From: Stromatinia cepivora
Taxonomy: Eukaryota > Ascomycota > Leotiomycetes > Helotiales > Sclerotiniaceae
DNA: 64,000 nucleotides
Assembly (NCBI GenBank): GCA_014898415.1
Contig: RCTD01000025.1
Coordinates: 248,001 to 312,000 of the forward strand
Direction of reading: 5' to 3'
Below the pieces are notes generated by a model, which worked only from the letters and a program-made list of their open reading frames with translations, had not been told where the DNA came from and ran no database searches. Positions within the stretch are counted from its first letter, which is position 1, and the number at the start of each line of letters is the position of its first letter. Shown piece after piece: positions 10,142 to 41,940 of this stretch. The translations under genes and the position numbers were made by a program.

Positions 10142-11652
10142 TTTGGAGTTTGAGTTTGTGGATAAGGTGACTGTTGAGGGGTAGTCTTCAAGCTCCTGAG
10201 AGCCTTGGAAGCTATTCAAACACTGATATTAGTAAGTAATTGTTCCTTCCGACCCTGTCTGCTTCCTGGGAGCTTGATATTTTATGAATCAATATTTATG
10301 AAGGTCCGTTTCAAGATGAATTGACCTCTATGACGGCTTTGTGGGAGAACTTAGGGCATATTAACAACGAAAGATCAGTATCAAAGGTCAATACCATTTA
10401 GTACCATTAGATCACTTGACATAGCTTAATACTACCTTAGGATTAAAAAGAATTGAAGGTATTGAGGGCTCGTTTGGACTTTTTACTGAACACATTTTAA
10501 GGCACGATATGGGCAAATATGCCTAAGAATATCGTTTGGATCTGCCCAAGATACCTTGAGGCAACATGTCTAGAATTGTGCTTATGAAACCCACTTTTTA
10601 AAGTCCCTCATAGTAAATTTAATGCCTGTTTAAAAATTTGCCAGGAGCTTTGAAGCTCATGGCAACGAATAAGTAACCCTTTAAGGCAAATTTGTAACAT
10701 GAGCCTGAAGGTGGTTCTGAAGGGTAAGGCTGTAATAAGGGATGCGCACATGCTAAGATCATCTTAAAGATAAAGCTATTCTCATTTCTGCCCAAGTAGC
10801 TAAGCTAATAGCCTGTAGAAGCCTATCAAATTACCTTGGGTCAATCAAGCAGATTCAATAAATCAGCTTTGAACACTCTCAATTGCTTCAAATATTCCAG
10901 TTTAATGCCTTAATTTCAAGAAACAAACGAAATATAAAGCTAATCCTCTAAATAGACAAGCTCGAAAACATTTTTATACTATCTATGTCCATTTATCTTG
11001 AAAAATGCATTTAGGACCTTAGTCAATACCTAGGTAGGTTTAGGCATCATGTCTAAAATCTTGCTTTGGAAATCCATTTTCATAAGACTACTATAATAAT
11101 TTTCATTATATATTTAAAATTCGCGTAAAGATAGTATCACAAGTTCTAAAGAGTCTGGAGAATCTAGACAGTCCATTTTAGACAACCTTGCCCCGTTGTC
11201 TAGAACGAGGTCCATGTCGCACCATTATCAGTCAGCTTCCAACATGGTCATAAGACCATGGCCGAGGATTACAACTGTATATCCGACGAGCTAATCTTTT
11301 CCTTATAGAGAATCAGATGCGTTATCTTACATTTCAAGTGACATTGATCGATAAGACCTAGTTTGAACCTCGTCCAGTACTGCAGGTTTCATCAGGCTCA
11401 ATAATCAAGCTTGATTCGTAATAATCACACCACTTACACATCTGAATGCTTGTACATCATGCATAAGTGCTTATTATATCTTCAACTTATGCTAGCTTTT
11501 TATTTAATAGTATTCCCTTTCCAAAAAAAATATATGAAATTTATAAGTATTAATTTAAGGGTATATTCTAGTTTCAATCTAGAGTTTTCTAGCACCACAG
11601 GCGGGGGCCCTAACTTATATCTCGTGAGGTCCCCACCTATACACCCATCATG

Positions 11653-15687: not shown

Positions 15688-17749
15688 CTAGTTCCCATTC
15701 TTGATGTCGTCGGCAATCTTTTCAGCCAGCATATCTGTGTGCACATTAGCCAAAGTTTTTCAATGTCCAAGGCCTTTTAGTATGCGAAGACTTACAAACT
15801 GTGGCCTGCGGGAGTCCCGGAGGGAGCAGGGGGAAGGCAGAGGCATCAACAACGCGCACTATAAATAACGAAGGTTAGTACCAGATCGATGTACACTCCT
15901 GTGTTACCCCCAAGAAAACTTACACTTGCTCACTCCATATACACGAGCGTGGCTATCCACAACAGCAAAAGGGTCGCTGGATTTGCCCATTCTGCACGAC
16001 GCGCTGGCGTGGTACATGGTATTGAAGCTGTCCTGAATTTGACTGTGGATCTCGTCGTCAGTCTGGACCAGGGAACCCGGGTAAAATTCGGGCCCAATGG
16101 TGATGTTGGCCATGGCAGGGTTTTCTAGAATCTGTCTCAGCCGCTTGAAACCGGCAATGACGAGCTCGATATCGCGCTGCGTGGTCATCCAGTTGGGGTT
16201 GATCAGCGGTGGATCAGCCATGCGCGGCGACGAAATACTGATGTTGCCGACCGATGATGGCGCAATCAGGGTAGCGAGCAGCGTCGCGTACATGTAGCCA
16301 TCCACTGGAGTGCTGTCGGTGATAGATTGGAAGTCACCAACGTACGTAGGGAGAGTGAGATATTGCATCTCGGGCCAGTCGTCTGGAAGCTCCGCCAGTT
16401 CCTCCAGAGTGCTGGCCGAAAATGAAGCGCGGAGGTCTGCTGGTATTTTCTCGTAGCCCGCGAAGTCGCCTCCTGGGCTGGAGAGCGGCCCTGTACCATT
16501 GGCGTTGAATTCGGCCTCAGCCCGCTCTCGTGCATCGCCATACAGTAACGCCGAAGCTGTTTGCAGGTTGACGCGGTACGAAATTCCAAAGAAGACGTGA
16601 TCACTCATGTTCTGCCCGACACCTGGCCGGTCCGCTACCACTGAAATGTTATGTTGGCGGAGCAGATCGGCTGGGCCGACTCCCGAGACCTGAAGCAGCT
16701 GCGGCGATTGGAACGCCCCTCCCGAGATGATGACCTCGCGACGCGCTTGGAGAGTGTATGTTTGATTTCCTGTCGTGACTTCCACGCCGTATGCCACCTT
16801 TTGTTTATCGAAGAGAATGCGTTCGCCGAGGGTAAGGTCAAAGACCTTCAAGTTTGGGCGACCCGTCACGGGTTCCAGATAGGCCACCGCTGCCGAGTCT
16901 CTGTGCCCGTCAGTGGGATTGATGGTCGATGTCAGCCACGCGGAACCGTTGAGATGACCATTGAGGAAGGCGTCGGTAGTATGCATACCAACGGCATCCA
17001 TGGCCTTAGCTATCCACGTACTGAAGCTCTGAGCCCATGAGGCATATGATACGGACAAAGGACCCCCACGGATAGCCTCACTTAGATCTGCAGAGGTTGT
17101 CGCATTGGCGAGGCGGAGCTCTGTATTTGCGAAGGTATAGTTCATACTCTTCCGATAATAATAGGATGAGTCTTCATAGGCATATGATGCATCTCCCACC
17201 GTATCCGCCCATTTCTGGAGAGCTCCCTCAGTAGTTTGAGTATAGCCCATATAGTTCAGGTTTGAGCATCCTCCAAGCTGGTATTCTGTAAGCTAATGTC
17301 ACAGTTTTGCAGCGTTTCAGGGTTCAATATTCACTTACCGACTTTCCACGGGTGTAATGGACAGATTGGCTGTTGATTCCCTAGATCCAATTAGTAAATG
17401 TCCTCTACTTAAAGATGCGAGAGAAATATACAGCTTGCGGTGTTGTCATGAAACCCCACTCGACCAAGGGATTGGTGTCGTTGGGAGATTTCCCATTAAA
17501 GTAGAAGTCATATGAGGGAACTTGGCTCTGGTTTCCTGTCACGTTCGTGGACCAGGTGCCGGCTTCGACGATGGCGACTGAGACAGAAGGGTCCTCAGAT
17601 AGTCGAGAGGCAATAGTTAGTCCTCCAGGGCCAGCACCAACGACAATGTAGTCGAAGGTAAGTCCAGAGGCGACATTTTGAGGAGCAGCACTGGTAAAGC
17701 TCAATCCTGAGAAGACTGCTAATATCGCAAGGACCTTCGGTGCGGTCAT
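15688..17749 (-). CDS. Secreted GMC-family FAD oxidoreductase
   Basis: A glucose-methanol-choline type flavoenzyme, normally oxidising alcohols. Five exons: 17749-17432, 17380-17339, 17277-15924, 15858-15796 and 15734-15688, giving 607 residues, the usual length. The start MTAPKVLAILAVFSGLSFTSAA is a signal peptide; the longer upstream frame was rejected because this Met gives the secretory start. The dinucleotide motif VVGAGPGGL is followed by VEAG; HYTRGKSLGGCSNLNYMGY is the GMC signature 1 region, assembled across introns. Several N-glycosylation sequons are present. Near the C-terminus YHASASCRMG supplies the first catalytic His (H543). The second catalytic position, normally GHPQ, reads GLPQ (L587). 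The gene is divergent from the MBL gene, sharing a 665-bp promoter. Confidence 0.95.
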
Positions 17750-18414
17750 CTTTCCTGAACTGTTATGCCAAGTTGAAAGCAAAAACCAAAGCTTATTGTT
17801 AAACTGGAAAAGTTGATTTATATCATACAGGAAACTGTAGAAGCTTGAGACTCTGCAGAACAAAGAATAGAAGGACAATCTGTTGCTACTCGATCTAAAG
17901 ACAGAAGACTACATAGTTTTATAATATTCAGATTCTATTAATGAAAAGCGTTGCTACTAGCTACACAAGACAAGGCACATAGCCAAGCATTTTCTCCAAG
18001 AGCCACAAATGTAATAGGGGCTGTAATAAAACCGAAGGATTGCTTACAGGCTCGTTGACCATGTCTGTCAGCTTGCCCTATTTTACCCTTGTCAGCTGAC
18101 AGAAGTGTGATTCATAGCAACAGAAAAATGAAAAATTGAAGACCCCTGAATGTGGGAGGCGGGAAAATTCCCGTATAGAAAACGAGCTTAAGTACCACTA
18201 TCTCATAATGCGCAAGGGTGGGCACACGTGGAAGACCCAATGGGAGTCAAAGGGCCATAAATACCTCGGGACTGCTAATTTCTGACCTCCTTTAAGCTTC
18301 ACCAGAATCCTTCATTTTCTACACTTGTCCTCGAAGCGGTGAAACAACTTGCTGCTTATCTATCTCTTCGTTGTTTTTCATTGAATTCCTTCTGCAAATT
18401 TGCCTCCTGCACAC
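17750..18414. promoter_or_regulatory. Divergent promoter region, GMC oxidase / MBL hydrolase
   Basis: 665 bp between two start codons pointing outward, so both genes are probably co-regulated from here. A CACGTG palindrome at 18235-18240 is the type of site bound by bHLH or some bZIP factors, and a TATA-like CATAAATA lies near 18256 on the MBL side. Function of these sites is inference from sequence only. Confidence 0.4.
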
Positions 18415-19556
18415 ATGGAGTTTTCGGGCGTTCCTCGCCCCGTATCTCCGCCTGGTCTTCAGGTCCCAGCTTCCTTGTCGACTGTAGACGTGAGAGTTAT
18501 TAACACGTACGTTATATATCTTTCATCAAATTCATCAGTCTAACTGCACTTGTACACAGCAATACGCGTCTCTATTTGAAACCAGGCCTCTTCTATGAGC
18601 CAATTTTGCCAGGCTTGGACGGGCCAAACGCCCCCATATACTGCTTCCTCGTTTCTCACAACGATCGCCATGTAATCTTTGACCTTGGGGTGCGCATCGA
18701 CTGGGAAAACTACGCGCCGAGGATCGTACGGCTCATTAAAGCCACCACGCAAGTGACAACATGCGACAAGGATGTAGCGTCTATGCTCGACGATGATGAT
18801 AGCGGCCTGGGCATTCGCAGCTCCGACATTGAAGCCATCGTGTGGTCACACAGCCATTTCGATCATGCGGGCGACCCGTCGCGATTTCCACCCAGCACAC
18901 AGCTCGTTGTCGGGCCTGGCGTCAAGGCAAGCTCATGGCCCGGCTATCCGTCCAACCCTGACGGCGTCGTACTAGACAGCGATGCTGCGGGCCGCGAGAT
19001 CCGTGAAATAAGCTTCAGTAGCACAGGCCTACGAGTCGGCCCCTTTGATGCGTTCGACTATTTTGGCGACGGTTCGTTCTACCTACTTGATGCCCCTGGC
19101 CATTCACCCGGACACATTTGTGCCCTCGCACGTACAACGGCTGATCCGCCCTCTTTTGTCTTCATGGGCGCCGACGCATGCCATCATCCCGGTGTACTGC
19201 GGCCTACGAAGTATCTTCCTCTTCCCAAGCCGACGTCTTCAGACCATCCAAACAGCTATGGCGCTTGTCCGGGAGACTTACTGATGCAGCTAGGGAAGTG
19301 GAAGAGTCCTTGTGAACCTTTTTTTAATGTGGCACCTGGGCTGGTGTGCTACGACCATGCAGACGCCATGAAGACTGTGGCCAAGATTCAAGAGCTGGAC
19401 GCCGCCGGCAATGTATTAGTTCTTCTTGCACACGATGATTCGCTGGATGGATTCCTGCCGTTATTTCCCAAGCGCATGAATGATTGGCAAGCGCAGGGGC
19501 TGCGTGAATCCACAAGGTGGTTGTTCTGCAAAGAGCTGAAGCATGTTGAGCTATGA
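18415..19556 (+). CDS. Metallo-beta-lactamase-fold hydrolase
   Basis: Two exons (18415-18506 and 18560-19556; donor GTACGT, acceptor ACAG) encode 362 residues. The zinc signature HSHFDH is intact (H128, H130, D132, H133). The further ligands expected of the fold also appear: DAPGHSPGH, GADACHH and a late LLAHDD. Similar proteins include lactonases and the discrete MBL-type thioesterases that release products from some non-reducing PKSs. The PKS here carries its own TE domain, so a lactone-opening or other hydrolytic tailoring role is at least as likely (inference). No signal peptide is evident; a cytosolic enzyme is expected. Confidence 0.9.
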
Positions 19557-22173: not shown

Positions 22174-23446
22174 TCACAACGAGGTAGGCGTTTTGGCATT
22201 TGGAAACTTCATTGCATTCGTCCTTGCAATCAGGAATGAATACCCAGTGACACTTGGATCCGCTGGGATGAAGTTGTGTGGAAAACCTGCATTGAAGGGA
22301 ATCACACCTTCCAAGAACGCAATTTGCTCATTGGTGAGCTTGATACTTAGCGCCTTGATATTGTCTTTCAGGTGCTCGACCTTGCGACCGCCTACAACAG
22401 GAATTACGTTGGCTGCTTTGGACATGACATATGCCAACGCAATGGAGGTGATAGATGCGGCACCGTGTTCAGAGGCCACCTTCTCCAGCGCCCCACTAAT
22501 CTTGATCTCGTTTTCGGTCTGCTGGGGTGGTCGTCCGGCGGAGGTACGCAGTTGCTCCCCGGCATTCTTGCGTTTCTCCAGCGCGGCTGTGGTTTGGAAC
22601 CTGCCTCCGCCAAGAACATCCCACCTATTTGAGGCTTATATTAGCTTTACGAATCTTGCCAACTAGAATTTTGAATACTCACGGTGCAAGTGCCATGCCA
22701 AAGTGGCGCGCCATCGGGATGATTTCACGCTCAAAGTCTCGCATCATTATATTCCAGCGTCCCTGGTAGATGCTGAACGGCGTCTTTCCGTGCTCTGCCG
22801 CGTAGGTATTGGCAGCAGAAACAATCCAGGCGGGTATATCCGAAGCTCCGAGATACAGGATCTTGCCCTGCTCGACTAGAATATGGAGAGTATCCATGAG
22901 TTCCTTGATGGACGTTGTGTAATCCCAGTAGTGTACATAGTATACATCTGATGGGGATCACAGTTAGCAATCACTCCTCCCGAAACGACCCGTTATCGAG
23001 ATGAACATTAGTCGACACTCACCAATATAATCCGTCTGCAGCTTTTTAAGCGAGTCGCGGATCGCGACATGAATGCTGCGGCGAGAATTTCCCGCAAAGT
23101 TTGCTGCCTGTGGTCCTTGCCCAATGGCATGGCTGCGGTAATCCATGGAGAACTTGGTCGCCAGGACCACCGAGTCGCGGTTCTGGCGGGCGTTGAGCCA
23201 CTCTCCGATCCACAGCTCCGACTGCTCGTTTTGGTACACATTGGCCGTATCGATGAAGTTGCCACCGGCCTCATAGAAGGCATCTAGGACCTTGAATGTG
23301 GCGTCCTTGGTCATCGAACCCATCATGCCAGCCCAGGCGTCGCCAAAAGACATGCCCCCGAGTTGCAACGGGGAGACACGCACGCCCGCAGTGGACGAGA
23401 GGATACGGAGACGGCCTAGTTCGGTGGGGGGGGTTGGTTCGGCCAT
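22174..23446 (-). CDS. Aldo-keto reductase, norsolorinic acid reductase type
   Basis: Three exons (23446-23023, 22947-22683 and 22624-22174; phases 1 and 2 match) give 379 residues. The aldo-keto reductase tetrad is complete: Asp and Tyr in [17 protein letters not shown], Lys in VVLATKFS, and His in VYYVHYWDY. The sequence resembles the NorB/AAD group of fungal reductases and aryl-alcohol dehydrogenases, which use NADPH to reduce ketones or aldehydes. I start at [16 protein letters not shown] because family members begin like this; about 50 more in-frame codons upstream look like leader sequence. It may adjust the oxidation level of a side-chain carbonyl in the cluster product (inference). 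Confidence 0.93.
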
Positions 23447-23668
23447 GGTGGGTGGTGTTGATGATTTTGAAAAATATAGTTTTGTAGAAAAGCTTAAAGA
23501 AGTGCTTAGATTTCTCGAAGGGTCCACACTGAGTTTGATTGATAGCAGAAGAGTGTTTGTATTTCGGAATAAGTAGTTCAAGCTACCCCTCATCACGTAA
23601 GCATAAGCCCTGGTTATTTTGTTCTTTATACTATTAAGCTAGGTTCCGAATATGGAAATACGGAGATA

Positions 23669-26354: not shown

Positions 26355-27818
26355 TTAGGCGAGCTCAACCTCTAGGATAGCCTGAGCTGCGAGGGGCGAC
26401 CTCCAGACCTTAACGATCTTGTATCCCGCTGAGCGGAGCAGGGTGCTCCATTCAGTCTCTGTTCTCTCCTTTCCTGCAACATTCACCATCATGGTCAAGT
26501 CGTACGATGTCGCATGTGGATGTGCTGACTGCTCTGGCATTACGTGGTCATGAACTAAGATTTTGCTGTAGCCAGGCTTTAGGGCATCCCGGAGCATCTC
26601 TAGAATTTTACGTGCCGGCTCGTCAGACCAGTCGTGCAGGACGCCGTGCATGTAGTAGACACGAGAACCTGGAATGAGGAATCAGTGTTTCGAGTCTTGT
26701 CAGAATTGCGGGATCGCACTCACCTTTGATCGGCTGGGGCTGGAAGAAGTCGTGGGCCATCTTATTTACAGGCTCAGGGCACTTGGAGAGCCCGATTACC
26801 GCGGCCCTATCTTGAAGATAGAGCTGCGCAGCCTTATCTGGATACACTCGCCGGAATTTCTCGATGTCATGACCTACATTTCCTCCCACATCCACCACAA
26901 GCGGCTGACTGGAATCAGAACCATCCAGAAAGCTCGCGGCAGGTATGATATCCAGCCAGCTGGCTTGGTCGGCCATCACAGCCCCCATAACGTAATTGAA
27001 CGAGGCGCCTTCACGGGCGTGCTCTGTGTAGTATTGGAACAAATTACCCTTGTAATCTTTGGCGTACTGAAAAACACCATCGGCTGCATCTGTCGGGTTC
27101 TTGTAACTTGTCTTCTGGAGATACTCTGGCATCTTAGAGAAACACGGGAGGCTGGCATCGTACCTGCAGAAAGAGTTCAGTGTCCGGACACGTAACGGGT
27201 TTCGTTGGGAGAGAAAAGTGCCAAGTTACAGGTAATTGATCCATTCACCGAATACGGGCTGAAGCAACGAGAGAGAAAACTCTGTAGGCTTGAATACGCC
27301 GGTCGAAACCTCCTGAAGCACATGGTTTGCCGCCAAATGCCGGAGAATGCGAACTGGTCAATATGTATGTTTAGTCCTCAGGCCAAAGCAATGGGGTTTT
27401 ATCAGGCTCGCTCATAATCTTTTGGAGCCCATCGTTGCGGAGTAGTGTCAAGGACTGACCGAAAAGTGCAAGATCACAATTGACCATGGTAGCCAGGGTG
27501 TTGCTGTCTTCAGCCGAGTCACCTCTCTCATGCCACTTTTCGAACAGCTGCAGGTCCTTGGCTACCTTCAGGCTGGCTCCGAGAGCAGGCTGCAAAATAG
27601 GTTATTTTATTTCACGCTAGAAGGAGTTGGATGCTGTGTGAACTTACCTGATTCATGCCTAATCTCGCAACAGTCTCCCATGGGGTCTCGAGGCGGCTTA
27701 CGAGAGCATACGCAGCTATGAGTGCCTTGTTTCGATCGCCGTCGGTGACGAACTCATTTGCATTAATAGCATTCAAGCTCTTGAGAACTGTATCGGTGGA
27801 CTGGGTAGATATGTTCAT
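26355..27818 (-). CDS. S-adenosylmethionine-dependent O-methyltransferase
   Basis: Class I fungal O-methyltransferase. Five exons: 27818-27648, 27589-27460, 27353-27230, 27163-26724 and 26668-26355, giving 392 residues with all phases matching. The N-terminal dimerisation region includes PWETVARLGMNQ and VRILRHLAANHVLQEV. The SAM site is VVDVGGNVGHD. The catalytic His lies in GVLHDWSDEPARKILEM. The start MNISTQSTD is the first real ATG. It probably caps a phenol or carboxyl of the polyketide (inference). It shares orientation with P450 C and lies between the two inverted repeat copies. Confidence 0.95.
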
Positions 27819-29699
27819 TGTCGCAAAGTCTGGCTTTGTTGTCAATTTGGGCCGGGAGAAAGCAGTAGGCAAAGCTTTCAGAAAGATGAAGATTTTTATG
27901 ATGCTGTTAATGCTGTTAATGCTGTTACTCTTATATGGATAGACTTGCTTTCAATGCCAAGCCTGCCTATCAAAGGATTTCTTCGAGTTAGAGACTTCTG
28001 CAAGCTGCGCACACATCTCTCTTGAAACGGTTGTGTATATGTAAGACACACAGAGAGACGACTATGTAACACGCTGCAACGCTAAATGCATATTCAAGCC
28101 CTAAAATAAGAATGAGTGGTTTGATATATTACGACATCGACATATCCAAGGTCTTAGATAAGAATAGTTGATCTGACCTATTATAACCTCGCAGATACCC
28201 TGTAATGATTACAGCGGCTACAGGTGCAGCATTTGACGTACACATCATTGTCGGCGAAATAGATTCCGTTAAGACGTTGTAGTTAAAATGTTTCATACAA
28301 CTGCCAATGTATCCGAACCCCCGCACCTAGCTTTCAAAACGCATGAGCTTATGCCGGTCGAGAGCTAAGTAGACATACCCCCCCCCCCCCCCTGAACTAA
28401 TATTCTTCAGCGGATAGCCCCATATAAATCTGATAAGTAGGATTTATTACTGCATACGGATTTTGCCATCGATCGCGACTGGAAACTTGTTACGCAGCCC
28501 TGGATCTGCTCAAAAACCAGTTTTTGCCCTATGCTTAAACCTTCTAATCACTTAGAGTACATATCATATCAAATACAACGTAATAAACTGGTCCCTCTAA
28601 ATAGCATTGATTCATAAGTGGAAAGAGGGAATGGGTGTGGGTCTGGGGGTGGAGAAAGAGTAATATCCAGAATGGGCCAGGGGCTGGTAGCTTCTGTTTG
28701 GTGCGTTTGTTTGTGCAGTATATGTGTGTATCTACGTATTAAGCAAAATGGGAATAATGAGACAAAACTTGAGGCAAGTATCTCTATGGAAGTTGTACAG
28801 TGAAACTTAGAAATCCTTCAGCTTACATAGTTAGTGCTGACATCTGCATGCCGGGCCGGAAGGTGATGGTCGCTGTTTGGTGCGTTCTTTTGTGTGCGTA
28901 TATATCGATACGGAAGTAAATGTTCTAGATTTTGTCTTATGACCCTGTTTCTACATATTAGGCAAAATGAAAGTAGTGAGACAGAATTACTGGTCCTGCT
29001 TCAGAATTTCATAAACATCCAAAGCAGGACCAGGCATCCCACCAACACCCAAACCAGAACCCGGCACCCCGCAAACACCCAAAACAGGACCAGGGCACCG
29101 AGAACCATCTAAAGTAGGACCAGTAATTCACAAATATCTAAAATGGGACAAATATGGTCCTAAAGTAGGACCTGCTTGTCCTAATTTTTACAAAGGGGCC
29201 AATTTAGATGTGTTTTGTAAATTTTGTCCTACTTTAGTAAAGAACCGTAGAGGTTCTCAGATAAGGATTGGCAAATCGGTAGTGAGGAAGTGAGGAGCTG
29301 GTCAACCTCTGAAGTAGTATCTACTATGTTGTGTTGATATTGCAATGCAGCTATAGAGCTTATTAGGAGTCTTTGGATTGAATTACTAAGAGTAGGTCTC
29401 ATCGCACGACGTTGTGGAGGTCAGTGAGTCTACCCAATCACGCAGAAGTCATACAAAGCTCGATGAGACGTGATATTTTGTACTCGACATCAAAACTTAC
29501 CCGACATAATTAAATGAAACCTGTTCAGTTGCAATATGAAAGCACGTTCGAAAGTGTTTTCTCAAAAGAGGCATGCTTATGTAACTTGTCGTAGATAATG
29601 CAATTTCATGACATATAGAAGATCCTCCGCTAAATTTTATCATCTTTGAGACGTTGACTCCTTAGTTTACCCACGCATGTTACCAGGTTGGGTTAAGAA
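27819..29699. other. Intergenic region with homopolymer and minisatellite
   Basis: 1.9 kb. A run of 15 C residues at 28378-28392 is followed by two related blocks (about 28685-28780 and 28870-28990; shared GTTTGGTGCGTT and AATGAGACA-type pieces) and then a 30-bp minisatellite. No credible gene. Confidence 0.5.
29010..29160. repeat. 30-bp minisatellite, about 4.5 degenerate units
   Basis: Units follow the form ATAAACATCCAAAGCAGGAC plus CAGGCATCC, drifting to CACCCAAAACAGGACCAGG and ATCTAAAGTAGGACCAG. The flank at 28985-29000 (TACTGGTCCTGCTT) is an inverted match to the unit core, so the block is bounded by an imperfect inverted repeat. Confidence 0.75.
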
Positions 29700-31826
29700 T
29701 CACTGTTCACGTCGCTTTATTCGGCAGTAGAATCCTCGCTGCTTGAAGAAGAACCAGTTTTCAACAGTGAGGGCCTTGGGGTCGTTGATTTGTATCTGCA
29801 GCCTCCCGTCAGCGGGAATTTCTCCAAAATTAGAGACTTCACTCACGTCGTAGTTTAGAATTAAAAATGGGACTAGTTTTTTCAACTCAAATATGCCAAT
29901 GTGTTTGCCAAGGCACACACGTCTCCCAGCGCCAAACTTGTACTCACTGTCAGTCTTTACGCAACTCAACCAGGTTTCGGAAACATCACACTCACAGTAA
30001 GCATGCTCTGCTCGAGCTTCTTTTTGTGACCTTCGCCGCCGGAAAGCCATCTCTCTGGGCTCCATTCCTCGACGTTAGTACCAAATGTTGGCTCGTGTCG
30101 GTTGACTACGTAAGGGTTACTGCCGACCAAGGTATTCTCGGGCAGATAGGTGCCTAGTACTGTGATGCCACCAGCGGGAACAACACGCTCTAATGGAAGC
30201 GCAAATGGTGGATGTATGCGCAGGGCCTCTTGGATACAAGCATCGAGATAGGGCAAGTCACAAACCTCCTTCCATTGGGGATATGGTCGGGAGAGCTCTG
30301 CGGCGTCGAGCTCTTGCTGCAATTTCTGAAGCGTATCTGGATGGGAAAGCAGGTTGTCTGTAAAAACGTTAATTGCCGCTTCTTTATCCTCGAGCTATCC
30401 TTTGCAGTCTTCTTGTTTATCTCAAGAGCAATCATCATGGCTTTTGGTAATAGCAAGTACCAGAGCCGTATCAGAACAGGCTTCTAACAGCTAGGGCAGA
30501 CTCACTACATGGTAATTAGTGTTGGACGCAAAATAAATGAAATGACCTAAGCGATGATATAGTTCCCACTGAGTGGGATAGAATTGCACGTACCACATAA
30601 CAGTCCGCATCACTGTACCAACCGAGTCGGAGCCAGCGATAACATTTGAAAACGTCCAAGCAGTTGAGGCCCTATAATCATTATTTATTTCAGATTGCCA
30701 CCCTAGAATATACACAGGGAGGGGCGCTTCTCTTACCACGGCGGCAAATTCGAGTTTTCCTGCTGAATCTCAAGAAAGCGGGCTAGGAAGTCCTCGTAAT
30801 GAGTTTTAGAGCCAGGGTCGCCTATAGCTTTGTCTTTATTATCTACTCGTTCCCCAATAACTTTACCTACAAATCCAAGAATCGAATTTCCGGGTGTACG
30901 CCGGAAACTTTGGATAATGCTGTTTTTGTAAAGCAACGGGTCGAGCCAAGGGATTTGTGTCATCTAAGAAAATCGGCGATCAGTTCATGGGGCTCGCTAC
31001 CAGAAGTGCTCAACCAAATATGATGATGAGTTTCCTCTGTGATCTGGGGCTACGAACCGGCGCTGCAGTTTTGAAAAAGTTGAAGATAGCATCCAACATC
31101 CCTTCAATGTCTCGGCCTTGATCGAGGAACCCGTATCTCTTAGAGAAAGACATGGTTCCCATGACATCAAACGCAAAATACTGCAACCACTCGCCAAAAT
31201 CAAACGTCTCACCCGCGTACGCGAAGCGTTTGTCAAATTGCTTAGACATGCATGATAGCACTTCCTCCACTAGACCCTCGAATTTTGCAACGTTGGAGAG
31301 TGAGAAAAGCGCTGCAATGGGGCTCTTGATCTGCTTGTGGACTTTCTCGTCTTGTGTGTTGAACACGGCCAGCATAGAACCACGTCCTCGAGTGTAAGGA
31401 CGCAATGTGGCATAGAAATCACTCTAACGAGGAACTCGAGGTTAGTTGTACATTCTATTTCCCCTATAGGATGGTATAGGCACAGACCTTCGGAATTCCA
31501 GGCCTGATCGAATAGATTGTGGGAATAGCTTCAGGGCTACTGATAGACACCATATGAGGTCCGATCCGTGCAATCTCACCATACTTGACGTGGACAGCCT
31601 CGTGATAAAGGTGTGCGCGTCCCGTTTTCACCCACCAAACCCTTTGCAAATTGGTAAAGCGGGCTAAGAAGGGTCCAGGAATGTGCCTCAAACACCACCA
31701 TGTTTGGAATGTACGTAAGATTATGACCGCGATTGTTGCTCCCACAGCCAACCACAATGCTCTCGCTCCACTAATATTTTCCAACATGAACTCTGAAGGA
31801 GGCACGACGCCAGTTACGAATTTCAT
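29700..31826 (-). CDS. Cytochrome P450 monooxygenase (cluster P450 C), contains a probable stwintron
   Basis: Seven exons: 31826-31488, 31423-31058, 30963-30737, 30671-30595, 30357-29996, 29936-29847 and 29795-29700, giving 518 residues. Motifs: membrane anchor and hinge [11 protein letters not shown]-helix [15 protein letters not shown], ExxR motif EALRIH, PERW, and heme loop [10 protein letters not shown]. The overall pattern resembles the pisatin-demethylase/benzoate-hydroxylase type of fungal P450. The I-helix to [12 protein letters not shown] junction is restored only if an inner intron (30593-30505) lies between the first and second bases of the outer intron donor (30594, then 30504-30358). 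The last intron (29846-29796) is optional by reading frame but gives the family length. It is divergent from the PKS. Confidence 0.93.
30358..30594 (-). other. Probable [D1,2] stwintron in P450 C
   Basis: The exon ends in T at 30595. Base 30594 is the G of the outer donor. The inner intron runs 30593-30505 (GTACGT ... CTAATTACCATGTAG, 89 nt). Its removal joins G to TGAGTC and creates the outer donor GTGAGT; the outer intron ends at 30358 (TTAAC branch, ACAG acceptor; 148 nt). The spliced protein reads VMRTVMYNLLSHP, matching P450 spacing exactly. I found no single GT-AG intron that does this. Confidence 0.7.
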
Positions 31827-32479
31827 CTTTATTGCAATGATTCAAGAAGACTGAAGATTGACAAATGCCTGTGAGATGGGATAAAAACACGAATTTATAG
31901 GTACAGTCAAAACTCGACGCAAGAATCCGATTTTGGGCAGGGATTCTAGGTTTATTTTGAGGTAGTCTTATATCAAGGGGTTATTAAGCTGAATCTGGCA
32001 GTATTATTAAGCATTTAACCTTATTTAACCTCAAAATCTAAGCAATTATCCTTGAATTTTTGATAACATATGCATAAATATTGTATAAATAAGACTATTT
32101 TCATAATTTTTTATATGAAACGAGATATTGAATTCCTAAGAATATTCTTATATCCCATATATTAACCTACAAGACATAGATTCAAAGTCTTATAAGGAGT
32201 TTATTCTTATGTCCAAGTTCTGACTGTACGGTAGTAGTTTGCTTGTTCGGATTCTTTCCTCTTGGATAGTTTAGTTTTATTCAAACTCTGATATGTATCG
32301 ATACTCTTACGATGTCGAAAGTCATTACCTGGCTGCTCGATGGTATCATACAGTAGTACGTGACCTACCGAGATACATATGAGTGGGGTACTGTTGATTC
32401 ATATAAATCTTGGCCCGCCCTTGTTACATTTCGGCAAAGGAATAAGAGATCCTAGTTAGCTGCCGGACGGATGCTGCCT

Positions 32480-33533: not shown

Positions 33534-33541
33534 TATATATA
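33534..33541 (+). promoter_or_regulatory. TATA box of the PKS gene
   Basis: TATATATA at 33534-33541, 116 bp upstream of the PKS ATG, followed by a pyrimidine-rich leader (CTTCAAAGTTCTCACCTC). Its position supports 33650 as the true start, and so the KR at the N-terminus. Confidence 0.5.
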
Positions 33542-33649
33542 GTTCCATATTCAAAGCTTACAAGTTTGAACAGAATCTTTCAATCAACTTCAAAGTTCTC
33601 ACCTCTTTTAAACTTCTAATACTACTGTATTGAATAGAAGCAAGCAATC

Positions 33650-36600
33650 ATGAGCACCAACGGGCTGATTCACCAGCTCGCTTGGGCACCTGCTGCACTC
33701 TCCGAGGAGGCATTGAGCTTCCAAAAGGTGGCTTTCCTAGTCGGTAACGAGGAACATAACGAGATACTCTCCGCATACCAAAAACAGCTCACTGATGCTG
33801 GCTATGTAATTGCGGTTGTCAATGATGCCACAGAGCTCGGCCATTTGTTGGCACCGGATACAATTATTGTCCACATCCCATATACAGCAAGTGCTAAAAG
33901 TGACATTTACGAAGCTGCGACCAAGTCGTGCACCAGTTTGATTGCAGCTGCGCAGCTGCTGTACCAGAACAGCCAATCCGGCCAGAACAAGACTTCTAAG
34001 CTGTTTTCGCTCATCAGCTTGAATGGCGGAATCGGCGACCTAGGTTATACCCCGCTTTCTGGCCTGGCGCGGGCAATGAAGATGGAAATACCGGAGATAT
34101 TTGGCGGACTATTTGAGGAGGACAAAGGATCCTTTCCGTTGTCCGCCATAAAGTACGCACGTGGCTTCGACGTTGTCAGGGTCAGCAAGGGAGTAGCACA
34201 GAGAGCTTTATTGCAACCCTTTCCAGACGAGTCCAACGACAAGAAACAGCTACAGTTCAAGTCGGAGGGTTCTTCTTACCTCATTACGGGTGGGACCCGA
34301 GGAATGGGCCTAGAAATTGCGACGTGGATGGGCCGGCGCGGCGCTCGTAGTATCGTACTGGTGTCACGACGTGGCCTGTCGCCGAGTCTCGACAGCAACA
34401 CGAAAAATGCGGGTAACGAAAAGCTCATCTCGCGGATCAAGGAGCTTGAGGCTCTGGGAACCACAGTCCATGTGCTAGCCATTGATATTAGCAAGCCCGG
34501 TGCAGACTCCACGCTGAAAAAAGCCATCGACAACCTGCACATTCCACCGATCAAGGGAGTCGTTCACGCGGCCGGGATCGCAGGCTACAATACAATCGAG
34601 CGTTGCACGCCTTCCGACGTCGCCGAAATATTAGCGCCCAAGGTAATCGGCTCCTTGAATCTAGACGCCCTATTCCCCCCTGGCACACTGGACTTCTTCA
34701 TCTCCACATCATCCGTCGGACAGCTCGTTGGGTTCTCCGGCCAATTGGCCTACGCACCCGCGAACGCGTTCCTGGATGGATTGGCGGCGCAGAGAAGAAG
34801 TCTGGGCGATAACAGCATGTCAATATTATGGACCTGCTGGCGTGGCGTGGGCTTGATGGCGGAGAGCAAATCGGCGACGCGGATGATCACCAAAGGTATG
34901 CAAGCCAGAGGCATTGGGGAAATAAGCAAAGATGAGGCGTTTGAGGCCTGGGATCGTTTCGCGACCCTCGGGAGTGATCACGTGGCCGTGGTTCGCGTGT
35001 TGGAGCTAGACGCCGACGAGCCACTGCGACACCCGGTGCTCAAGAACATCACGCCACGTGTGCAAAGAAAGCAGACGAGATACAGCAATTATCCGAAGCA
35101 TGCAGTAGCGGTAGTGGGCATGGCTTGCCGAACAGCAGCCGGAGATACTCCTGACGACCTCTGGCAAGTGATCCAGACCGGCAAGAGTATGGTGCGTGAG
35201 ATCGACGTGAAGCGGTTCCCCGACGCAGCCAAAAAGGGTAAGATGTGGGGGAACTTCTTGTCAGATGCCGAGTCGTTCGATCATCAATTTTTCAAAAAAT
35301 CCAAGCGCGAAGCAGCCGCACTTGATCCGCACCAGCGCGTGCTGCTCGAAACCACGTACCACGCACTCGAAAGCGCAGGCTGGCTGGGCGATGGCCAGCA
35401 GCAGGAGGCAGAAACCAATGACAAACCAAAAACTATCGATACGACAGGCTGCTTTATCGGTATGAACGCGCCCGACTACCCCCTGAACCTAGCTAGCCAC
35501 CCCACCTCACCATATACCGGCTTCGGTATGCTCCGCTCATTTGCTGCCGGACGACTGAGCCACCACTTCGGCTGGACAGGTCCCTCCCAGACCATCGATA
35601 CAGCCTGCTCGTCGGCCATGGTCGCTATCCACCAAGCTTGCCGCGCCATTCAAGTGGGTGAATGTACACAAGCCGTTGCGGGCGGCGTCAACCTAATCAC
35701 TAATACAGCATTGTTCGACGCCCTGCGCACAGGTGGGTTTCTCAGCGAGACAGGCCCCTGTAAGACATTCGACGCCCTAGCTGATGGGTACTGCCGTGGC
35801 GAGTCCGTGGGTGTCTTGATACTCAAACCGCTTGAGAGGGCGCTGAAGGATGGGAATAACATCCAAGGTGTGCTGCTGTCGACTGGCAATAACCAGAATA
35901 TCAATACCACAAGTATCACAAACCCTGTTTTGGAGAGCCAGGCAGCGCTATACAGAGATGTGCTCGCCCGTGCTGGAGTCAATCCTAAAGATGTGTCGTA
36001 CGTCGAGGTCCACGGCACGGGCACACGCGCCGGCGATCCCACAGAGGTCGCAGGCATCCGGCAGGTTTTCGGAGGGAAGGATAGGTCTACTACCTTGCAC
36101 ATTGGTGCTGTGAAGCCCAACATCGGGCATTCGGAGGGGTCCTCAGGAGTGATCTCGCTGATCAAGGTCCTGCTCATGATGAAGCACGGCAAGATCACTC
36201 CGCAGGCTCAATTCAAGTCATTGAATCCGAATATTCCGGCCCTCGAGCCTGACCAGATGGCGATCTCAACATCGCTGAAGGAGTGGCGTGACGATTTGCG
36301 TTTCGCAGTGGTTAACAGTTACGGTGCTTCAGGCAACAATGCGGCTGCTGTCGTTGCGCCTCCGCCTGCACGATCATCGTCTTTGCCAACGGTGATGGAA
36401 TCAGTAGTGCCTACCCCTCCCATCTCTACTTGGCCTATATTTATTGCTGCCGCCTCTAGCGTCAGCCTTTTGGCTTACTGCAACAAGCTGAAAGACCAGA
36501 TCGAAAAAACCTCGTCAGCACCAGAACTAGCTCATCTAGCTTTCGCTTTAGCGACGAAACAGAATCGTCAGCTGCAGCACGTATTCGCTACAACGACCAC

Positions 36601-39600
36601 ATCTTGTAAGTAATCCCTAACCTGTTTTGAATTCCAGAGAGCAATGGCTAAATTCCTTCATCAACTTAGTGGACGATTTGCAAGGCCAGCTCGCCGACCC
36701 AGAAAAGCACATTACTGCATCCACTAAACCCAAGCCTATCGTGCTTCTTTTTAGCGGGCAGAACGGTAACACCGTACAGTCAGCCAGTCCACTGTATAAT
36801 AGCTCTCGGCTATTCCGGACGCACCTGCACCAATGCGATGAAGTGATGCAATCACTCGGCCTCCCCAGCCTGTTTCCGGCTGTTCTCCAGGGACTCCAAG
36901 ATGACGCCGACCTCGTCCTCCGCCACGCCGCTATGTTCGCCATTCAGTACTCGTGCGGCATGTCATGGATAGACTCTGGCGTGAAGCCCCAGGCGGTCAG
37001 CGGTCACTCGTTCGGTGAGTGGGCGGCGTTGACATTGTCAGGTGCCTTGACACTCGAGTCTGGTATTAGACTTGTTACTGGGTATACATTCTTTTTGTTA
37101 AACTGTATCTGATTAAAATGCTTGTTTAGCTTTTATTATATATACTAACTGGTTTATAGTACGTAGATTCTAAATTCTAGAATAATCCTGTTGGTAATAT
37201 AATCATATGATACTAACGTGCGAGCAGGTCGTGCATCTATTATACAGAAGCTCTGGGGAGACGACACTGGGTCAATGGTAGCCATAGAAGCTGATTTAAC
37301 TGGGACTGATACAACCCCAGAGGAGAATTTAGAGCCATTTCGTAAGAAGCACCCAGAGACTAAGCTCGATATCGCGTGTTACAACGGGCCAAACAACTAC
37401 GTGGTCGCGGGGAGCACAAAGGACATCGAAGTTCTCGAATCGTACCTCAACGACAGAAAGTCCAGCGGCGAGAAGCTACGCTTCAAGGTCCTGAAGGGTA
37501 TGCACGCGTACCACTCTGTTATGGCTGACTCAATCGTCGACGCGAGTAATGAGTTGTCGGCTTCGATTCCCTTCAAGGTCAGTGCTGAAAATGCCTAATG
37601 AAGCTTCATGAGCTTCAGTTTGCTGATAAACTTTCCCTGCTGCCGTCTAACCAACTATTAACATGCTCACTCACACAGGACCCAACCTTCCCCTTCGAAT
37701 CCTGCCACAAAGACCCCTGGACCGGTCCCGGCGTCAATGTGATTGCCCGCAACACACGCGGGGCTGTATACTTTGGACAAGCTATCTCACGCATTGTCAA
37801 CCGTCTAGGCCCGTGTACGTTTCTGGAAGCTGGCTTTGGTGGCCCCATCATCGCCATGGCGCGGAACGCGCTGCCACAAGCCCAGGCACAGGCCCAGCAC
37901 ACCTTTGTGGCCATCAGTGGCAAAGACTCAGCACGGTCCCTTGCAGACGCCACAGTCACGCTATGGAGGAGCGGTCAGCCGAATGGGCAATTCTGGCCAT
38001 TCCACCGGAGCCAGCGAGAAAACTACGTGTCCGTGACTCTACCGCAGTATCAGTTCGAGAATCATAGACACTGGCTGGAGTACATTCCTCGATCTAACGA
38101 CGGAAGCAAGAAGACTGATGAGCAGGTACAAGCACTATCTGGAAGATGTCCTCATTGCTTGAAGGATGTCTGTGACTACCCATATATCGAGCAAGACAAG
38201 TCCCAGAACCAAGGCGCGGGCAAGTTCGTTTTCAAGGTCGACCCGCGCAGTAGACGGTTCCAAGAGCTGGTCAAGGGCCACGCTGTGGTGGGGTCCCCAA
38301 TATCTCCGGCGTCAATGTATCTGGAGCTGCCTTCGCACGCCATTGCCTTGCTGCACAACGCACAGGTGATGAGTACCGCCACAGAACTCGCGGCCGAAGC
38401 TTTGGAAATCAAGGCACCCCTGGGCCTGGACTCACAGCGTTCCATCAAGGTGATACTAACGAAAAAGACCGAGGACACGTGGGGTTTCGAGCTGTCCTCT
38501 ACTAAAAACAACCACAGGCCAACCTCGCACGCAACAGGCATCATCTCTCTGCGCAGCCGTCATATCAATAACCAACAGGACGATAAAGACAAGTGGGCTC
38601 GAACATCCAGCCTGCTAGAAAATGACACCGACGTAGAGGCCTTGCGGGGTACAATGGTATACAAGGTGTTTGAGAAAATGGCCAAGTACTCGCCGCCGTA
38701 CCGGGGCTTGCGGTACTTGGTTGGTAAGGGAACCGAGAGCGCAGGCGAAATAACGATGCCAGACAATCTAGACGTTATGGCCAGGACCCCGAACGCCAAC
38801 ATTGCCGACCCGCTGGTTATTGACAACTTCTTCCAAGTTCCCGGTGCGTTCGTGCACTCGCTACGTGGCGACAACGAGGAAGAAGAGAACGGTGGCATGT
38901 CTTATATCTGCACGGGCATGGGTGCTGTCGGGCCCCTGAATGGACTCCAGAATAGTGGAAAATACAGAGCGTACACGCAGATTGTCCGGGAAAGCAACAA
39001 GGAGGCAGTGCTGGATGTGTTCGCGCTTGACCAGCAGAGCAAAAAAGTTATTTGGTCTGCTAAAGGACTCAAGTTCTCGAGGGTTCCCCGTAACTCGTTG
39101 GTAAAGGTACTAGCGGAAGTTAATCCGGGCCTGGTCCTCAAGGAGCATTCCACTGGCCCGTCAAAGTCTACTGTAGATTCCCCAACACCAAAGAGCACAT
39201 ATCAAGCGACTCGTGCAGCTCCTCCAAAGAAATCCACCAGAGATGATTCAAACGCAGTTAACGTATTGAGTGGCGTCCAAGAAGTCCTGAGCAGGTCCCT
39301 GGACATTCCCATCGAGGAAGTGACCAAACAGGCTACGCTCGAAGATCTTGGTACAGACTCGCTGGTTAGCGCGGAAATCCTGGCGAATATCTCCGACAAG
39401 TTCAAAATCAATATTTCCACCGATATCTTCGCAGCACTTACCGACGTCGCATCTTTGTGTAGCTTAATCTCTACGAAGGTTGGTGGCGACGTTTCTGAAA
39501 CCAGCGAGAACAACGGTGAGGAAGAGCAAGCGCCAGATGCTTTCTCGGACACAGTCGAAGAGGGGAGTTCAGAATGGCAAAAGACGGTTGTGGAGATCCT

Positions 39601-41940
39601 TAGCAAATCCCTTGACGTACCGGTTGAAGAGATTCAGATGGATTCGAACCTCGAAGATCTCGGCGCCGACTCTCTTGTTGCGGCGGAGATTATCAGCAAC
39701 CTGAACGACGCGTTCAATGTCAATATATCATCGACAGATTTTGCTTCAATCGTCGATGTGATATCCCTCTGTAATCACATTGCAGGCACTGCGGGTTTTG
39801 ATTCAGTGCAGACACCTTTGAGCAGTCTATCTGACGCTTCCTTCACACAGTCAACTTCAAAAGCCGAAAGCCCATTGATTCTAGACACTGGCGCAACCAC
39901 CCCGAAAAAAGCCAGCCAAGACTGGATGCACACAGCTTTCCAGGGGATCCGTCGCAACTTCGATGTGCATGCAAAGGAGACCCAGCACACAGGCTATTGG
40001 AAGGAGGTATACCCACCGCAGCTGATCACTGTCACGGCCTTTATCACTGAAGCCTTCGAGAAGCTTGGCTGTCCCATAAAGAATTTCAAACAAGGGGATA
40101 AGCTTCCCGCTCTACAAGAGACGTTGCCAAAGTACCATAGAGAGGTCCCGCGGCTCTGGGAAATCTTGGAAGAGGCCGGCGTCGCCGAAAAAAAAGGAGA
40201 CGACTATGTACGCGGCCCAACACCCCTCAACGGTGACCTTAGTGGCAAGTCTGCCCAGCAGCTGAGCAGCGACCTCATCTCAGACTTCCCTCAGTTCGCA
40301 TCCACACACGGCCTACCCGACCTTCTCGGACCACACTTGGCCGAGTGTCTCACCGGCAAATCCGATCCTGTCTCCCTCTTGTTCGGTAGCGAAAAGGGCC
40401 GCAGCCTCCTCGAACATTTCTACGCCAACGGGCCTGACCTGCTAGCCACCACAAAAGTGCTCTGCGACTTTTTATCCGCCGCCATCCACGCTCAGGCCTC
40501 GGACGGCGAGCCCTTCCGGATTCTCGAGATCGGCGCCGGGACTGGTGGTACCACCAAGCATCTCGTGCCGCTCCTTCAAGCTACCGGGCTCCCATTCATA
40601 TACACCTTTACCGAGCTCTCCGTATCACTGCTCGCGCGGGCTAAGAAAACGATCTTTAATGGCATCGTCGGTATGGAGTTCCGGAAACTCAACATCGAAG
40701 AGGAGCCTCCTGCAGAGTTGCTGGGACGCTACCACATGGTGGTGTCGAGCAACTGCATACACGCAACGCGCGACCTACGATGCTGCCTGGGCAACATTCG
40801 CAAAATGGTGCGGTCTGATGGTTGTGTAGCACTGGTCGAATTGACGCAAAAGCTGGCTTGGTACGACCTGGTCTGGGGATTGCTAGACGGATGGTGGCTG
40901 TTTGACGACGGCCGCAAATACGCGCTGCAGAGCCCATGGGCCTGGGAGCGGGTCATGCGGGATTCTGGATTCGCGCACGTCGACTGGTCTGAGAGTTCAA
41001 GTCGCGAGTCCCGTGGCATTCGGGTGATTTGTGGCATGGCAGCTGAACTGGACCGGACGTGTCCCACGAAGGTCACCTCAATGCTCTTGCACCGCGCGAC
41101 TTCAGGGTCCAGTGGCCGCAACTTGTTCCTATGCCCAGATGGGTTTGGCTCTGGCGCTGTGTTTGGCTCTCTTGTGCCATTGCTCGATCGTATCAATGAT
41201 GTTTCTGTCTACGCGCTCAACAGTCCTTTCCTCAAGAACAAACCCGATTTGGAGGACCCGCCCACCATCGAGGAGTTCGCCGCTATATACGTGGCCGAGA
41301 TCAAGCGTCGGCAGCCCAAGGGCCCGTATTTACTTGGTGGGTACTCGATTGGTGGTGTGATCGCCTATGAGGCGGCGCGACAACTGCTTGAAGATGGAAA
41401 CGAGGTCGAAAGGCTGTTCCTTATCGATGCGGCATGCCCCACCTTTGTGACCTCTCTGCCGAGCTCTCTAGCTGACTTTTTGGATTTGATTAATCAGACC
41501 AGCGTGGTGAAGGAGGACAGAATTCAAGAGAAGACCAAAGGTCAGTCTATCAAGAATGACCACTTCACTCTGGCGAGGCATCAGTTGTTGAGATACCAAG
41601 TGAGTCCGCTTCCAGGCAGGAAAATACCGCAGGCTACACTATTCTCAGCGAGAGAGGGAGTGGACAAGCAGGATCAGGTGCCCCGACCAAAGGCTCTACC
41701 GGAGGAGGAAAAGATCGCGGGTTGGTTCCTGGACGATCGGACCGACGATGGATCCCTCGGATGGAATGAGCTTCTAAGCAGCGTGAGTGTGGTTCGTGCT
41801 GACGGCAATCACTTCTCCATGATGACGCCTCCTATGGTAAGACAATTATTTCCTCAATCTCTATAAACGATTATATCACTAACATGCAACAACAGATTGC
41901 TTCATGGGGTTCAGAGCTTGCTAAGTTACTGTCTGCTTAA
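33650..41940 (+). CDS. Iterative type I PKS with N-terminal ketoreductase (KR-KS-AT-PT-ACP-ACP-CMeT-TE)
   Basis: Exons 33650-36605, 36670-37080, 37228-37577, 37679-41836 and 41896-41940 give 2639 residues. Domains: KR 1-455, opening with the structural-half motif HQLAWAP, NADPH site TGGTRGMG (about 214) and S355, Y368, N372; KS 483-905 (C653, H788, H827); AT 990-1300 (GHSFGE S1099, H1218); product template 1425-1730 (H1440, D1621); ACP S1800 and ACP S1904; C-methyltransferase with LEIGAGTGGT at 2188; TE with GYSIGG S2462, D2489, H2617. From KS onward it matches C-methylating non-reducing PKSs of the AusA/MpaC/AfoE kind, but KR stands where the SAT should be. No DH or ER of the reducing type is seen. 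Intron 2 is a probable stwintron. It makes the cluster's carbon skeleton. Confidence 0.95.
37081..37227 (+). other. Probable [D1,2] stwintron in the PKS AT domain
   Basis: Exon 2 ends at 37080. Base 37081 is G of the outer donor. The inner intron is 37082-37159 (GTATAC ... ATACTAACTGGTTTATAG, 78 nt). After its removal G joins TACGTA to form the outer donor GTACGT; the outer intron ends with GATACTAACGTGCGAGCAG at 37227 (69 nt in all). Two full branch-acceptor modules are visible. The spliced protein reads RLVTGRASIIQKLW, the conserved AT sequence. Confidence 0.8.

Follow-up and report, generated by a model that had tools for sequence, protein, structure and literature searches.

Results

Gene and domain organization of the locus

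The 64,000-nucleotide stretch of DNA analysed here (hereafter, the window; all coordinates are window positions) comes from the Sclerotiniaceae fungus Stromatinia cepivora (positions 248,001 to 312,000 of contig RCTD01000025.1, here C25) and carries, at 33650-41940 on the forward strand, a single gene for a polyketide synthase (PKS) that begins with a ketoreductase (KR). Fungal PKSs are divided into non-reducing (NR-PKS), partially reducing (PR-PKS) and highly reducing (HR-PKS) classes. Pfam and NCBIfam profile searches of the exons gave the order KR, ketosynthase (KS), acyltransferase (AT), product template (PT), two acyl carrier proteins (ACP), C-methyltransferase (CMeT) and thioesterase (TE), which is the order that a preliminary description of the same DNA had read; the KR residues it had named (S355, Y368 and N372) are all present, together with K331, as is the TATA box it had placed 116 bp before the ATG (Table 1). 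S355 was identified as the catalytic serine by its distance to Y368 in an alignment with EryAI KR1, under what we take to be the EryAI numbering. The PT domain matched TIGR04532 with 115 bits, which is under the curated cut-off of 168. The starter unit ACP transacylase (SAT) domain, which the preliminary description had read as absent from the N-terminus, found no match in exon 1, and a whole-genome search with PF16073 placed SAT matches at nine places, on contigs C3, C4, C7 and C29, with none on C25.

The gene is split into five exons with the stop at 41940, for a predicted protein of 2639 residues, and corresponds to S. cepivora EAF04_009090 (database protein P0001, 2647 aa); the only difference between the two is eight additional P0001 residues at one splice site, and our residue numbers above 1123 follow P0001. 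A 28-nt first intron was rejected, and the junction identical to that of P0001 was chosen instead. KR and KS lie within one intronless open exon of 985 codons; the fusion is therefore genomic and not an artefact of the gene model. Among 49 genome matches to the exon-1 protein, the window locus alone covers KR and KS in one match.

A recurrent family of KR-first synthases

A one-off shuffle in S. cepivora was rejected because the same order recurs in at least 48 fungal proteins that start with this KR, i.e., P0001 and 47 others (the first 48 among the best 120 of 7970 candidates; the family searches were restricted to proteins of 0.55-1.75 query lengths and to the best 120 rows). The 47 relatives are 51-67% identical to the query in their best alignment, with query coverage of 99-100% in 35 and of 37-79% in the other 12, and come from Aspergillus, Penicillium, Trichoderma, Botrytis, Rhexocercosporidium, Apiospora, Diaporthe, Cytospora, Colletotrichum, Conoideocrella, Jackrogersella, Whalleya and Xylariaceae, which we take to span Leotiomycetes, Eurotiomycetes and Sordariomycetes. 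A KR-blind search with residues 480-1400 returned the same 48 among the matches listed, plus P0186 and P0219, whose models begin inside the KS so that the presence of a KR cannot be judged. Extensions upstream of residue 1 occur in just two of the 48 family models (9 and 17 aa), and one model (P0041) begins late. The suggestion of the preliminary description that the order might be undescribed is not supported: it was reported for Aspergillus in 2021 (available text of PMC8582187), and it is recurrent in the databases.

The KR module and the KS have separate ancestries

When residues 1-470 were used as the query, the 48 family members were followed first by 13 rows of fungal PR-PKSs of the 6-methylsalicylic acid synthase (6-MSAS) type, by name or shape, with at most 46% identity; beyond these, PR-PKSs and bacterial PKSs alternate, the PR-PKSs mostly ahead. 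In the single best alignment to the KR, each of the 46 PR-PKS rows has a higher score than any of the 141 bacterial rows. A bacterial origin of the KR, prompted by PDB matches to EryAI, was rejected for this reason and because of the full support for the PR-PKS placement in the tree. Specifically, a first KR tree was built from 87 rows (24 of the 48 family members, 34 of the 46 PR-PKSs, the 24 best of the 141 bacterial rows and five HR-PKS pieces of the S. cepivora genome), and a second without 14 of these rows, four of them long-branched and ten left out to save time (22 family, 29 PR-PKS, 20 bacterial and two HR-PKS rows). In the second tree the family forms one clade (support 100/100) that is joined to the PR-PKSs (100/100) and nested inside them at 97/88, and the first tree agrees.

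The KS falls elsewhere. In a quick KS tree of 67 rows, in which some own-genome rows are long and one was assembled from two pieces, the family together with P0186 and P0219 forms one set (Shimodaira-Hasegawa-like approximate likelihood ratio test, SH-aLRT, 100) that joins the C-methylating NR-PKSs (SH-aLRT 98), away from PR-PKSs and bacteria. The limits of the matches separate the two parts as well: with residues 1-470 as the query, each of the 46 PR-PKS matches begins within residues 1-17 and runs to 458-470 (to 458-505 with a longer query), whereas all 16 NR-PKS matches have their first residue at 447-481. The KR module is therefore present whole, with its trailing linker, directly before the KS, and the fusion point lies at about residue 470-480. 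On the basis of these trees and match limits, we assign the KR module and its trailing linker to the 6-MSAS-type PR-PKS lineage and the KS to the C-methylating NR-PKSs. The domain shuffling proposed in the preliminary description, with a KR replacing the SAT, is thus well supported by separate KR and KS trees that fall in different PKS classes, and by the SAT of P0216, a close KR-less relative.

The TE may represent a third piece. Its nearest solved structure is the PksA TE (103 bits for 3ils and 97 bits for 8cg4, against 57 bits for the structure that follows). HTH_51, the marker of the CMeT, matches at three places in the genome (in this gene, near 906 kb on C7 and near 539 kb on C13) and PF00975 at eight (this gene, C3, three on C4, C7 near 210 kb, and two on C2); a genome-wide profile search found no PF00975 match beside the other two HTH_51 loci, i.e., a PksA-like TE is paired with a CMeT only at this locus in the S. 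cepivora genome. Because the closest TE relatives (those of C3, of C4 and of C7 near 210 kb) each have a SAT match about 6 kb upstream and no HTH_51 match, and because P0216 ends in an ADH/BD-FAE hydrolase, the enzyme is likely a three-part mosaic whose TE was acquired from non-methylating NR-PKSs. The C7 gene near 901 kb has SAT, KS, AT, ACP and methyltransferase in pieces; this locus (C7:900900-910800), the closest KR-less relative in the genome, has one in-frame stop in its KS match and two in its SAT match, and may be decayed or carry short introns.

Conservation within the family

K331, S355 and Y368 are present in 48 of 48 members and N372 in 47; all four residues occur in 46/46 PR-PKS KRs as well. 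The glycines of the NADPH motif are invariant or nearly so across the 48 members. Median identity to P0001 (n=47) is 75% for the KS, 67% for the catalytic half of the KR and for the AT, 56% for the PT and 52% for the structural half of the KR. The PT histidine H1448 is found in all 48 members and D1629 in 43. The CMeT is missing from ten members, and the P0045 model is also without a TE, although some missing domains are possibly gene-model errors; mapped on a quickly built KS-region tree (48 members and three outgroup rows), CMeT presence needs four state changes. The KR, in contrast, is retained in every member. That is, methylation seems expendable in this family and reduction does not.

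A probable twin intron in the AT region

If the AT site is spliced as one GT-AG intron, the reading frame is lost. The stretch 37081-37227 is probably a [D1,2] spliceosomal twin intron instead: an internal intron (37082-37159; GTATAC..TACTAAC..TTATAG) interrupts the donor of an external one, which reads G37081+TACGTA(37160)..TACTAAC..GCAG(37227), each with its own TACTAAC and AG. A frameshift in the AT region was rejected in favor of the twin intron in view of a branch site in each half. When the two strands of the window were scanned with a pattern for this signature, no other place matched; here it matched with three starts that overlap. The AT junction is clean in nine of the 48 family models; 27 models carry inserted residues there, and in the other 12 the junction is deleted or odd in another way (39/48 irregular). 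A twin intron would explain this; it may be conserved and spoil gene models across the family, judging conservation from the proteins alone. Twin introns as such are already known (available text of PMC5611559), and our literature search pairing them with polyketide synthases returned nothing beyond that paper.

Neighboring genes and the AT-rich block

Upstream of the PKS gene, and divergent from it across 1.8 kb in the case of the nearest cytochrome P450, lie several genes or gene pieces (Table 1) that would fit a candidate tailoring cluster. Immediately after the PKS gene, GC content falls sharply from >50% to 18-25% (window positions 42000-64000). This AT-rich block holds degenerate direct and inverted repeats, including inverted pairs of 883 and 757 nt, and the one open reading frame examined in it had no significant Pfam match. 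Repeat-induced point mutation indices did not clearly separate the PKS gene from the block, and therefore we claim only a step in composition.

Table 1. Features of the PKS gene and its surroundings, in window coordinates
Feature	Position	Strand	Basis or remark
TATA-like box	33534..33542	+	116 bp upstream of ATG
Exon 1: KR module, KS, beginning of KS-AT linker, no interruption	33650..36605	+	
KR module (residues 2-470: structural half, catalytic half, post-KR linker), assigned to 6-MSAS/PR-PKS lineage	33653..35059	+	PR-PKS match limits, trees
Catalytic KR (PF08659, residues 209-398; K331, S355, Y368, N372)	34274..34843	+	Pfam, 183 bits
KS (residues 485-855; C653, H788, H827), C-methylating NR-PKS type	35102..36214	+	Profile search, KS tree
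Intron 1	36606..36669	+	Junction identical to P0001
Exon 2: initial AT portion (S1099)	36670..37080	+	
Proposed [D1,2] spliceosomal twin intron in AT	37081..37227	+	Intron signals; relatives' irregular models
Exon 3: further AT (H1226, P0001 numbering)	37228..37577	+	
Intron 3	37578..37678	+	
Exon 4: AT end, PT, ACP, ACP, CMeT, most of TE	37679..41836	+	
PT domain (H1448, D1629, P0001 numbering)	38198..39115	+	TIGR04532
ACP1	39266..39475	+	Profile search
ACP2	39584..39781	+	Profile search
CMeT (HTH_51 and S-adenosylmethionine-binding domain)	39947..40975	+	Profile search
TE (PF00975; closest solved structure PksA TE, 3ils)	41120..41827	+	Profile search, structure-database comparison
Intron 4	41837..41895	+	
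Exon 5: final TE residues and stop	41896..41940	+	
Cytochrome P450 pieces	29703..31841	-	Divergent from PKS
O-methyltransferase pieces	26358..27950	-	PF00891, 67.6 bits, above cut-off, in 26358-26681
Aldo-keto reductase pieces	22177..23638	-	
Metallo-beta-lactamase-fold protein	18504..19553	+	
GMC oxidoreductase with Rossmann-like N-terminal piece	15907..17908	-	
Cytochrome P450	12750..14291	+	
Cytochrome P450 pieces	8494..10228	-	

Discussion

We favor, as the probable explanation of these results, that a PR-PKS KR module replaced the SAT ahead of a C-methylating NR-PKS body carrying a PksA-like TE, and we infer from this arrangement that the enzyme would perform a single early keto reduction followed by non-reducing synthesis. 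Under this model, without a SAT, the chain would begin from acetyl or malonyl units loaded through the AT and KS; the N-terminal KR would reach an ACP of the dimer and reduce a single beta-keto group early on, probably in the diketide or triketide; the extensions that follow would remain unreduced, with the CMeT adding methyl groups; and the PT would guide ring closure before the TE releases an acid or lactone. The expected product would be an aromatic or dihydroisocoumarin-type compound with C-methylation and a single reduction, which the adjacent P450s, O-methyltransferase and oxidoreductases may tailor further.

Several observations weigh against this model or parts of it. The KR asparagine (N372) is changed in P0035, and PT D1629 is replaced by N in five of the 48 members (P0022, P0024, P0025, P0026 and P0035, all named Aspergillus), where it may alter ring closure in an Aspergillus branch. 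A profile search of the enzyme revealed no dehydratase that could follow the KR and act on the new hydroxyl. For the KR trees, the PR-PKS rows had been selected as best KR matches, the 141 bacterial rows were represented by their best 24, and the HR-PKS rows numbered only five or two; further, a sister placement of the KR to the PR-PKSs was not rejected by the approximately unbiased test (p 0.25), and the KR may lie either inside the PR-PKSs or beside them. Finally, the NR-PKS TerA and the dehydratase-ketoreductase TerB together give 6-hydroxymellein (PMC12848540; PMC4274970 says only "probably"), and the available text of both papers describes TerB as reducing 2,3-dehydro-6-hydroxymellein, that is, late.

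Two alternative roles of the KR deserve consideration. Its place in the position of the SAT, with no dehydratase alongside, would also suit a KR fold that was kept for structure or starter loading, as a SAT stand-in or dimer brace, with its chemistry unused in the product, and the lower conservation of the structural relative to the catalytic half (above) was counted on the same side. However, a mere brace needs neither the catalytic residues nor the NADPH-motif glycines, which are invariant or nearly so in the family, and hence we consider this explanation unlikely.

KRs of PR-PKSs act on ACP-bound chains. Since the KR here appears to derive from these enzymes, we find it improbable, to a similar degree, that it acts late, on a finished or nearly finished chain, even though this is how TerB is said to work. 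Lastly, a gene-model artefact joining two adjacent genes is exceedingly improbable: while irregularities at the AT intron are frequent among the family models, a single open exon encodes both KR and KS here and the fusion is common to at least 48 proteins, and the available text of PMC8582187 likewise argues against annotation error for the Aspergillus cases.

The family bridges the NR and PR classes through the transplant of a whole KR module that was kept in all 48 members examined. The family would show how a reducing domain ahead of the KS serves an iterative NR-PKS, and its natural relatives with and without a CMeT should be useful for learning programming rules. While the architecture itself was known, the KR and KS ancestries, the likely TE mosaic, the constancy of the KR as opposed to the changes in CMeT, and the twin-intron reading are new here.

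Comparison with known systems

The closest described enzymes are a cluster of Aspergillus NR-PKSs, termed "very abnormal" in the available text of the synthaser paper (PMC8582187), in which an N-terminal KR replaces the SAT; that text proposes that the KR works as in HR- and PR-PKSs and defers characterisation to future work. The enzyme described here shares all the features of that group, i.e., the N-terminal KR in place of the SAT, an otherwise textbook NR-PKS order with a PT, and a KS among the NR-PKSs, but comes from Sclerotiniaceae rather than Aspergillus, and KR ancestry and function are not given in that text. Many described synthases of this order with known products would have spoken against the preliminary description; many such synthases do exist, but a product was found for none of them in the open-licence literature (most subscription journals lie outside it). 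With respect to the established classes, the enzyme has the PT and releasing domain of NR-PKSs and, at odds with that class, a reductive domain and no N-terminal SAT; it has the KR lineage of 6-MSAS-type PR-PKSs but not their order KS-AT-(DH)-KR-ACP (DH, dehydratase).

Botrytis cinerea P0015 has the same domain order and 62% identity over the full query. Several relatives bear the name BcPKS20, and from these transferred names, and from the available text of PMC11173184 not excluding Bcpks20 from its KR list, we infer that P0015 is BcPKS20 itself. In the available text of PMC9146135, B. fuckeliana PKS20 is assigned to group NR-IX, as is PKS23 (atranorin, methylated orsellinates), the rule for group IX is an ADH domain after the CMeT, and TE is not seen in groups VI, VII and IX; the S. 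cepivora enzyme has a PF00975 TE at that place instead of an ADH domain. As far as the accessible parts of these papers go, Bcpks20 has general annotations only (PMC11173184), is listed under unknown polyketides (PMC9920419) and is not named in PMC3158057, and no BcPKS20 product is given in PMC9146135, PMC9920419 or PMC11173184; among 17 NR-PKSs in PMC12470490, only Bik1 is mentioned there as perhaps carrying KR and DH.

The two presumptive parent lineages each share one part of the enzyme. 6-MSAS-type PR-PKSs share the KR module and the following linker (P0121 and P0122, 45-46% identity), but P0121, organized as KS-AT-KR-ACP, has one weak DH-like match and gave no match to a CMeT or a TE. C-methylating NR-PKSs such as P0216 share the body from KS to CMeT (KS 48-53% identical in 16 KR-less database relatives), but P0216 has a SAT at the start and an ADH/BD-FAE hydrolase, not a PF00975 TE, at the end.

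TerA and TerB, as described in the papers cited above, are the nearest functional precedent for an NR-PKS assisted by a KR, although they are two separate proteins and the reduction there is described as late. It is possible, and we advance it only tentatively, that the enzyme described here is a one-polypeptide, cis-acting counterpart of TerA plus TerB, in which a captured 6-MSAS-type KR would act early, followed by non-reducing, C-methylating, PT-guided synthesis and lactonisation by the TE, to give C-methylated, singly reduced mellein- or resorcylate-like products in a lineage of three fungal classes that changed its methylation at least four times and kept its KR.

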